Assembly (NCBI GenBank): GCA_905160935.1
Contig: CAJHZI010000372.1
Location: forward strand, 171,501-235,500
Direction of reading: 5' to 3'
Length of the DNA stretch: 64,000 bases
DNA from: Enchytraeus crypticus
Taxonomy: Eukaryota > Annelida > Clitellata > Enchytraeida > Enchytraeidae
Positions 18,140 through 21,100 of this stretch are shown here, in pieces. The translations under genes and the position numbers were made by a program. How positions within the stretch are numbered: position 1 is the first letter of the stretch; each line of letters begins with the position of its first letter. The notes below the pieces were generated by a model. The model was given only the letters and a program-made list of their open reading frames with translations. It ran no database searches and was not told the origin of the DNA.

Positions 18140-21100
18140 CTGCGAATATCATTTAAGCGTATAATTAATTAAATATCATCAACATCATCATACTCTTCCC
18201 TTTAATCCCAGTTTAACTAGGGTCGAAATACGAATGAACCTTTTCCACTCCTCTCTCTCCCATACCAGATAAAAATCTCTTCCATTCGTTGAAGAATATT
18301 GTGTAGCAATTTGTAGAGTCTAGGCTCTCACCAACCGAATGCCCTTTCTGACGTTAGTTTGGATCTTAGTGCTTTAGTCGCCTTCTACGACACGTGCAGT
18401 CACCGGTTGGTCAATTCTTCAAACAACACGGTAACAATTAAATATCTTGCAATAAAAATAAAAGAATTATTTTAGCAATTGAGCATCCTCCTGAAAATAA
18501 TTTAATACATGTAAGACTCTAAGTACCAATAAAATATCTCAGTAATTAAGTAGGTAAGCATCTTGAAGTATTCATGTATTCATTGCTAGCAACGAATAAA
18601 TTAACTTAACAACCACCCTGCTGCTAAGAGTAAATAAATTAAACTTCCATTAATAATTATGTAAATTGATTATAAAAATTAATTGCAATTTAAAAAAACT
18701 AAAGTGTGAGAAAAGTATAAGAAAAATTTAAGTACCACCAGGAACCTTATTTTTGTATTAACAGTAGATTTTTGCTGATATTAGACTATGAAAAACTGTT
18801 GAAATCATCCAAATGTAATTATTTAAATGCATTTTTCTGAACAGAAGTACTACAGTTAAATTGAAAAAGGTAAACAGAGGATAATATGTAAAATTGAAAT
18901 CTTGCTTACTAATGAAATAACAGAATTTTATAAGGGATTTACATCTTGGGTTTGTCTTCACAATTTTTTTAATGGAATGAGACAACTGGTAGCAGACCGA
19001 GATATACAGACTGGGGCAAAAAAATAATCCCCTAGCGAGATCTCAATAACTTTCAGGAAACTGAAAATTTCTCTACAAAATTTGCGGAGCGTCTAGGAGA
19101 GGAATCTCTGCGTATATCCTGAAAATTTTATGAAAATCTATTGAGCAGGAACAATATTACAGCGTTTCTACGAAAAAATTGCAAAATCAGGTTTAACAAG
19201 GATTTTTTTGCCAAAAGTCTTAATAACTTGGACAAAATTCAAAATAATATTATAAAATTTTCGGAGCCTCCAGAGGAGGAATTTCTACACATATCCTGCA
19301 AATTTGGTGAAAATATATTCAGAAGTAACAAAAATACAGCGTTTCTTCGAAAATAAAATTAAAATAAATTTTAACACGGCACTTTTAAACAAAGGTACCG
19401 GACATTTTCTTCAAAATTTGGGAATAATTTTAACATGAGAATGAATTTTAAGCATCATTTATTGCAGTAGCTAACAAGGTAGTCCAGGCTTACACTCCAC
19501 CGCTTAAGTAAACGGCCCTTTTCAGGCTCGTTATTTTCTTTAAAAGGAACGACTAACATTTCGAAAAGCCTTGTTAAAATTGATTTTAGCACTTTTCTTG
19601 TAGAAATGCTGTAATTTCGTAACTAATGAAAATAGTTTCATCAAATTTGCAGGATATACGCAGAAATTCCTTCCCTAGAAGCTCCGAAAACTTCGTAGAG
19701 ATATTTTATTTTGAGTTTTCTTTAAGTTATTGAGATTTCGCTAGGGGATGACTTTTTTTTGCCCAGTCTGTATATATACAGTATATATACAGGGTGAGTT
19801 AGAAAAACAATTACACCTGCAAAAAGTTTGAATATCTCAGGCTATAGTTAATATTTTCCAATAAAACTTTTACCAATTACTAAAGAACTAATTTCTGACG
19901 GGGTGGCCAATTTTCACCCATTTTGGAACATAGATTGGTCAGTTATGCAAGACTCAGCAGAGCAATCCCCCATTTTTACCTAAAAATGGCGTTTGCTACA
20001 ACGGTAAGGGCAAATTGCACTTCATTGACGAGAAGGCAAAGGTGAACTCTCAGTATTACGTCAACACTTTGCTTCCGGAGCTGTTTGATAATTGCTATGC
20101 TCTTCTACCAAATGGTTTCATCTTTCAGCAGGATGTTTCTCAGGCTCATGGAACTCGTCATGCACAGGAATGGATCAGCGAGAGATACCCGGATTTCATT
20201 AAAATGAATGAATGGCCTCCAAACTCTCCCGATCTAAATCCTCTGGATTACTATGTCTGGGGAATCATGCTGCATATCTATCAGAAATACCATCCGAAGC
20301 CTAAAAACAAGACAGAACGGCAGGAAGTGCAACAATCAATCTGGGAAAGAGTGCCCCTGGCTAGAATCAATAAGGCTGTCCTAGCGTTCCGAAAGCGAAT
20401 AGTTCTTCGTAACAGCGGGAGGAAAGCATATCGAATAGTCAGCAATGCTAGCAGATACAACTAGTTCTTTCTGAACGACTACAACGGCCCTTTTCAGGGC
20501 CAAAATAGAATAAAATTTATATTTATATTTACAGTACATTAAAAAATGGGGGGTTGCTCTGCTGAAACTTGCATAACTGACCAATCTATGTACCAAAATG
20601 GGTGAAAATTGGCCACCCCGTCAGAAATTAGTCCTTTAGTAATTGGTAAAAGTTTTATTGGAAAATATTAAGAATAGCCTGAGATATTCAAACTTTTTGC
20701 AGGTGTAATCTTTTTTTTTACTCACCCTGTATATATATTATATATAATATATATATATTATATATATATATATATATATATAATATATATATAATATAAA
20801 TATATATATATATATTTAATATATATATATATAATAACAAGAATTAGAGTGCTACAGTCATCAATGACAACATCGAGCACTATTGAGACAAAATCAAGCC
20901 GGCGAGCAAAAAGAAGGCCTAAAAACGGTGCAAATTCCAAAATCCAGAAATTCAGTCCAAAGTAAAGGGAGTCAAAGAAAAGATGGTTTAGACTGAAACA
21001 TGCAGTAATATTGCACATTGGAAACGACTGTTAACAAAAAGTCTAAAGAAAGACACAAAGATAAAGATAGTGAAAACCTTGGTTTGGACCACGATACTAT

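Follow-up and report, generated by a model that had tools for sequence, protein, structure and literature searches.

A histone-type stem-loop follows the transposase stop codon in families of DD37D mariner-type transposons of Enchytraeus crypticus

The window, by which we mean the whole stretch of 64,000 nucleotides analysed here, holds three matches to the stem-loop pattern GGCYCTTTTCAGRGCC at up to two mismatches, against 0.06 expected. All three sit near the right ends of TIR elements, named E1, E2 and E3, and a separate inverted-repeat search of the window yielded the same three elements with TA-flanked CAG termini. Their features are the following.

19007..19770, + strand: element E2, family E, 764 bp, a TA-flanked TIR element, CAGACTGGGGC...GCCCAGTCTG
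19514..19529, + strand: stem-loop of E2, GGCCCTTTTCAGGCTC, with one pair broken
19542..19549, + strand: AAAAGGAA of E2, 12 nt past the stem-loop, at the site of the host histone downstream element
19790..20729, + strand: element E1, family A, mariner-type, internally deleted, 940 bp, TA-flanked and TIR-bounded, CAGGGTGAGT...ACTCACCCTG
19934..20464, + strand: decayed frame of E1 covering the C-terminal half of a DD37D transposase, 176 aa
20436..20438, + strand: ancestral stop TAG of the family A transposase, 47 nt upstream of the hairpin; the frame reads GGKHIE*
20486..20501, + strand: histone-type stem-loop of E1, GGCCCTTTTCAGGGCC, from pattern match, RNA folding and Rfam
20509..20514, + strand: AATAAA, possible poly(A) signal, 7 nt past the E1 hairpin and likewise in other family A copies
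45886..46667, + strand: element E3, family B, 782 bp, a TA-flanked TIR element with remnants of the same transposase
46128..46143, - strand: degenerate antisense stem-loop copy, GGCCTTCTTCCGGGTC, in the duplicated left arm of E3
46379..46381, + strand: stop codon of E3 after ...HFEHTL, 28 nt upstream of its stem-loop
46410..46425, + strand: stem-loop of E3, GGCCTTTTTCAGGGTC, with six of six pairs kept, two as G-U
46438..46445, + strand: AAAAGGAA of E3, 12 nt past the stem-loop

The inverted arms of E1 (19773-19977 and 20542-20746) are 94% complementary, and its termini read CAGGGTG with TA on either side. The 176-aa frame, which closes with the TAG at 20462-20464, has 241 protein homologues (120 of them listed) and a weak match to Pfam DDE_3 (E 0.0018, below the cut-off). 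Its D67 and D105 are the second and third acidic residues, and the 37 residues between them identify the transposase as DD37D. Relatives close with G-G-H-F-E-H and then the stop; since they end in HFEH or HIE plus a stop at a set place, the ancestral stop of E1 can be located at 20436-20438, a position that matches the other family A copies. E1 is a dead copy, in which the TAG at 20462-20464 is reached only through a frameshift. The original prediction had announced a perfect histone-type stem-loop with an ACAAC flank, 21 nt past a TAG. The stem-loop is indeed present at 20486-20501 and the distance to 20462-20464 is correct, but the stop that the family inherited is the earlier one, 47 nt before the stem.

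On its 5' side the E1 stem-loop has ACAAC and on its 3' side AAAATAGAATAAAA. When the region is folded as RNA, a 6-bp stem with z = -3.5 results, and the Rfam model Histone3 (RF00032) scores the hairpin at 31.7 bits (E 3.3e-5), slightly under its cut-off of 34; the stem-loops of E2 and E3 are absent from the Histone3 list at E up to 10. With an AATAAA beside the stem-loop and no purine-rich downstream element after the stem, a poly(A) end is possible in E1. Leucine-rich-repeat-like coding stretches were noticed by eye on the minus strand on either side of E1 and E2 (window positions 17767-18168 and 22049-25051), so the two elements may be intronic and run antisense to a gene. Also on the minus strand, a 460-aa open frame at 7822-9201 looks reverse transcriptase-like by eye.

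Despite the lack of any blastn similarity among E1, E2 and E3, AACGGCCYTTTTCAGG is common to the three. No clear transposase match was obtained for E2, and its left arm holds two tandem copies of arm sequence, about 75% alike, which suggests an internally duplicated remnant. E3 has its right end duplicated and inverted at the left. In short copies of family B (window 45886-46667; L038/L039 on contig C46) the enlarged left TIR is an inverted duplicate of the right end including the stem-loop, which places two stem-loops on opposite strands of each element.

Going beyond the window, we searched the assembly of this one genome (524 Mb, 802 contigs), in which GGCYCTTTTCAGRGCC has 376 exact matches and the reversed control a single one. 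Sixty of the 376 places were read. They were chosen out of roughly 100 that were listed, for the most part outside histone arrays, so the proportions that follow are not representative; a few of the 60 overlap (L035/L036, L038/L039). Histone arrays, with H3 beside the stem-loop, account for 13 places, 32 have a same-strand transposase C-terminus close upstream, nine are family B left arms (the inverted copy of the right end) and six lie without histone, transposase or B-left-arm context. Five of these six can be placed: L086 has family A flanks, L058 and L084 have family B flanks, L035 is a rearranged B arm and L093 matches E2 of the window. As for the sixth, L088 (C197:118445-118460), it is an exact GGCTCTTTTCAGAGCC preceded by AAAA, with no transposase or histone match nearby, and is unexplained.

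The stems at the two kinds of place differ in sequence, within the variants that the search pattern GGCYCTTTTCAGRGCC allowed. All 13 histone places read GGCTCTTTTCAGAGCC, while the 47 non-histone places read GGCCCTTTTCAGGGCC (40), GGCCC..GAGCC (four), GGCTC..GAGCC (two) or GGCTC..GGGCC (one). Two kinds of stem-loop flank were seen among the histone loci read, and regularly spaced stem-loops on C78, C85, C91-C96 and C172 (about 7.3 kb apart in C94 and C172) are the signature of tandem histone arrays. The transposon-type matches, among the roughly 100 of 376 places listed, are dispersed over many contigs. Wherever the transposase match reaches the stop codon, the distance from stop to stem could be read. 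Members of one family hardly differ in it, the values being 18 nt for C, 28 for B, 41 for F, 47 for A and about 48 for D, with 23 in copy L079.

Sampling of transposase 3' ends independently of the stem-loop relied on a protein search with P0006, which returned at least 129 scored matches, 40 of them at 50-70% identity to P0006 (families A, B and C) and 89 at 40-42% (family F). The 3' end was read for 50 of these matches: 36 belong to the 50-70% group, and the remaining 14 to family F, 11 of them with no stop interrupting the match. The stem-loop stands at the expected place in all 50, with at most four mismatches per 19 letters against the A or the histone version. The remaining four of the 40 A, B and C matches (on C24, C171, C195 and C221) were already among the exact GGCYCTTTTCAGRGCC matches. 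One element served as a control, a Tc1-like neighbour of a family A copy with an open 330-aa frame (L077 on C171, 245-1234), and no stem-loop follows its frame. By eye, this neighbour apparently has 37 residues before its last E.

Family F consists mostly of copies with open 395-codon frames (353 aa counted from the first ATG). In 13 of the 14 copies read, AGCTCTTTTCAGAGCT is preceded by AATCAAAC, and the 14th has one letter changed; the stem is the paired variant AGCTCT..AGAGCT, with all six pairs intact in 13 copies. Copy L094 measures 1983 bp between TA flanks, and neither of its 155-nt arms includes the stem, which is not matched by a similar one to the left of the gene. Gapped mean identity among the 14 copies is 97.3%, some flanking DNA included, and family A 3' ends average 92.1%.

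The comparison of 23 distinct stem variants, two of them from histone genes, provides evidence on the structure itself. Standard pairs fill 93.4% of the cells against a shuffled mean of 89.6, eight cells are changed on both sides against 2.7, and the covariation score is 0.269 against 0.198, values that none of 500 shuffles reached; two of the five covariation measures, the number of pairs with double changes and the number of pair types, did not rise above shuffling. The double changes convert pair 1 from G-C to A-U in family F and pair 4 from C-G to U-A in families D and F and in the histones, and the family A copy L130 has an A-U at pair 2. Compensatory changes in the stem, which the original prediction had named as a way of checking it, do occur, at pairs 1 and 4 between families. 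Selection within family A was looked for and not seen, the stem columns standing at 0.966 against 0.980 before and 0.953 after them; the stem is kept no better than its flanks there, which is what dead copies in free decay would lead one to expect. In the sequences compared, constraint on the stem is visible only between families. The stem-loop is usually preceded by AAC and its asymmetric loop TTTC is kept. Taken from sequence comparison, the stem-loop is very likely a selected part of the transposase mRNA of this transposon clade.

The host histone genes carry AAAAAAGGAA or AAAAGAGGAA at the downstream-element site, and at the 13 histone loci the stem is followed by an 11-nt spacer and then by AAAAGAGGAAG (seven) or AAAAAAGGAAG (six). 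On the transposon side, AAAAGGAA stands at offset 11-13 past the stem in families B and E and in copy L079, as it does in host histone type 2; by shuffling, its chance of falling at that spacing is about 0.5-3 in 10,000 per sequence. Ten of 16 family B copies have the exact octamer and six do not. The AAAAGGAA element is absent from families A, C, D and F, so that the purine-rich downstream element sought after the original prediction exists in part of the clade but not in E1.

Poly(A)-type hexamers are distributed unevenly over the families. AATAAA follows the stem by 2-13 nt in the A and C copies read, ATTAAA at 6 nt taking its place in the C copy L069. Neither hexamer occurs between the stem and the element end of family F, nor within 250 nt past the stem in the B copy L085, the D copy L063 and L079; ATTAAA is found 54 nt past the stem in the B copy L039 and 95 nt past it in the E copy L093. 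Comparable arrangements have been described for histone genes: in human H2AC18 an AAUAAA overlaps the downstream element and processing is possible either way, according to the accessible part of that report (PMC9756948), and C. elegans histone genes have AATAAA nearby, yet their mRNAs are reported, in the part of the article available, to end after the hairpin (PMC1924863). The A and C elements resemble these cases in having a poly(A) signal close behind the stem-loop, with the difference that H2AC18 and the C. elegans examples are histone genes of the host. Given the hexamers near the stem, the messages of A and C may end either way, as for H2AC18, and from their sequence a poly(A) end is a possible and live alternative for these two families.

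The host possesses the RNA-binding domain of SLBP at two loci of two exons each (C420:811540-813059 and C446:361354-362849), which are gene duplicates or haplotypes. The exon translations of one locus match the solved SLBP structure 4tv0 with E 2.6e-22. An Rfam search for U7 gave no hit in the host and none in the control genomes either, and is uninformative for that reason.

Looking for the stem-loop in other organisms, we found 1498 homologues of the family F transposase, the best 120 at 61-98% identity. A metagenome protein of family A type, P0097, reads in a shifted frame past the ancestral stop and shows ALFRA, encoded by the stem-loop in that frame, about 33 nt past the stop by back-translation and thus about where it is expected. 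P0097 is one protein among 240 homologues searched (241 + 1498 were found), most of which terminate at the regular stop and hence give no view of the UTR; deduced from a single protein, it is a suggestive sign of the stem-loop in another species. Viral contigs yielded nothing, whether scanned with the transposase alignments or with the stem-loop, and a protein scan of genome contigs of other organisms gave none that was confirmed. The stem-loop scan of prokaryote records produced 33 places with no histone or transposase match, which were taken as chance or bacterial terminators.

The elements show the features of the Tc1/mariner DD37D group: a DDE triad with 37 residues between the second and third D (D67/D105; D251/D289), a transposase profile matching Mos1 at 2e-13, with Pfam DDE_3 at or below its cut-off, and TIRs with a TA target-site duplication in E1-E3 and in the F copy L094. 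The Tc1/mariner-like character claimed for the frame is upheld by these features. The elements probably belong with maT; they share with this maT-like group the DDE triad and the flanking TA, and their termini here are CAGGGTG, CAGACTG and CACTGTG. Our literature search found no histone-type 3' end reported in that group.

The consensus of the histone stem-loop is a stem of six pairs with a loop of four nucleotides. Like the 3' end of replication-dependent histone mRNAs (RF00032), the transposon version has six pairs, a TTTC loop and a preceding AAC, and it stands shortly after the stop codon; families B and E also have a purine-rich downstream element, spaced as in the host histone genes. It differs in being placed on a transposase gene, in the lack of AAAAGGAA in A, C, D and F, in the poly(A)-type hexamer beside the stem in A and C, and in the outer pair of F, which is A-U instead of G-C.

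A DNA transposon with a histone hairpin is already known. Tm1-HH, described in 2011 in root-knot nematodes, is a Mutator/Phantom family with foldback-type TIRs and the histone hairpin between them, present in eight of 39 elements of M. incognita and in none of 22 of M. hapla (PMC3169594). As described in the accessible part of that article, the hairpin occurs only in non-coding, non-autonomous members and not in the transposase-coding one, and Cg-1 is a transcript of Tm1-HH. Its authors suggested capture of host sequence, called for tests of selection and noted both the link to histone mRNA processing and, at least in that part, the lack of an earlier non-histone case. The two systems are alike in that a DNA transposon family bears the histone hairpin inside the element. 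They differ in that Tm1-HH, as far as that description goes, is of Mutator type with a 9-bp target duplication, while here we find TA flanks, a mariner-type transposase and a hairpin that follows the transposase stop in all 50 ends read. The original prediction knew of no earlier description. This stands for transposase genes, on which a literature search, mainly of open-access work and without Repbase, found no histone-type 3' end, and it has to be qualified by the hairpin of Tm1-HH in print. As far as the searched literature shows, what is new is a hairpin that is standard on the transposase gene across families and comes with a matching downstream element.

We consider it likely that this DD37D mariner-type clade carries the histone mRNA 3'-end signal in place of or beside a poly(A) signal, and that its transposase mRNA uses the SLBP/U7 pathway. 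With equal confidence, we expect the stem-loop to act by way of SLBP, joined by U7 in families B and E at least. By analogy with the histone pathway, SLBP would bind the loop of the transposase pre-mRNA, the U7 snRNP would pair with the downstream element where one exists, and the RNA would be cleaved about 5 nt past the stem, yielding an mRNA that leaves with no poly(A) tail. SLBP would in that case govern how stable the message is and how it is translated, and an mRNA so tied would lead to transposase made mainly in S phase, or in eggs and early embryos, which draw on histone mRNAs. Use of the histone 3'-end pathway, the central proposal at the outset, is favoured by the stem-loop in 50 of 50 ends, the near-constant gap, the paired changes and the host SLBP, and is weakened in E1 by the AATAAA and the missing purine-rich element.

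Other explanations account for parts of these observations. The hairpin might bind SLBP on a polyadenylated transposase mRNA, SLBP then serving translation, export or stability and not cleavage. The AATAAA or ATTAAA at 2-13 nt past the stem in the A and C copies read would fit, and the accounts of H2AC18 (PMC9756948) and of C. elegans histone genes (PMC1924863), in the parts available, offer precedents for a stem-loop paired with a nearby AATAAA. However, neither hexamer is met up to the end of family F or within 250 nt in L085, L063 and L079, and the C. elegans mRNAs are reported in the same partial account to end past the hairpin despite the signal (PMC1924863); we regard polyadenylation of this kind as unlikely for the clade. 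The palindrome could alternatively act as DNA, as a sub-terminal site for the transposase or a host factor in the right end, its likeness to the histone element being secondary. In many copies it does lie close to the right TIR, and in family B the enlarged TIR contains it. Against such a site, the stem falls outside the TIR arms in E1 and in the F copy L094 and is absent on the left, where a DNA site would also be expected; the asymmetric TTTC loop and the preceding AAC are kept, as is, in families B and E, the correctly spaced octamer of the histone downstream element, and the position of the stem tracks the stop codon. A stem-loop inside the TIR and unrelated to the stop codon had been foreseen as a possible objection. 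The gap between stop and stem hardly varies within a family, and although the stem-loop of family B is inside the enlarged TIR, its sense copy is still past the stop. A role as a DNA site seems very improbable.

Less probable still are two further readings, to which we attach about the same, minimal weight. Transposon RNA could soak up SLBP as a decoy, or the hairpin could tether the element to the histone locus body or arrays; stem-loop matches do number hundreds in the genome, yet the transposon-type ones are dispersed over many contigs among the approximately 100 of 376 listed, and the link to the transposase stop codon would be left unexplained. An ancestral element could also have come to hold the hairpin by chance or by taking up a host histone 3' end, shared descent then passing it on to the copies without function. 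The stem of family A, which decays like its surroundings, agrees with this, and the authors of Tm1 propose acquisition of host sequence in the accessible part of their article (PMC3169594). Set against it are the low identity of family F to the A-like P0006 (40-42%) and the lack of blastn similarity among the window elements, across which the stem is nevertheless kept with paired changes, as well as the young family F, which keeps six pairs in 13 of the 14 copies read.

Use of the histone 3'-end pathway by the transposase mRNA remains the reading we prefer. On a wider scale, we lean towards the view that a widespread animal DD37D clade took up the histone 3'-end signal long ago, its non-polyadenylated transposase mRNA being tied to S phase or to the histone mRNA stores of the egg. 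In planarians, 254 of 316 transposon families, together with histone mRNAs, were reported to be more abundant in ribodepleted libraries than in poly(A) ones, and Mariner/Tc1 elements are named among the most active (PMC6884822). This difference is compatible with histone-type ends on transposons but not specific to them, and data of the planarian type could test for such ends on transposase genes (PMC6884822). Poly(A)-selected libraries would overlook such transcripts, and in genome annotation, scans for the stem-loop take transposon copies of this kind for histone signals. Natural variants such as the A-U outer pair of family F would be useful for learning what SLBP and U7 accept.

Transposition during replication is one of the ways in which cut-and-paste elements are known to increase in number. 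Non-polyadenylated ends and S-phase timing of the transposase mRNA, as we infer them from the histone pathway, would mean that transposition is timed at the RNA level and would give a handle on the timing of cut-and-paste transposition to DNA replication. A transposon group with this signal on its transposase gene would extend the case of Tm1-HH, known from non-coding copies in the available description, to coding mRNAs; if the proposal is true, its messages would form a naturally occurring class of protein-coding mRNAs that are not histone mRNAs and yet depend on SLBP and U7.
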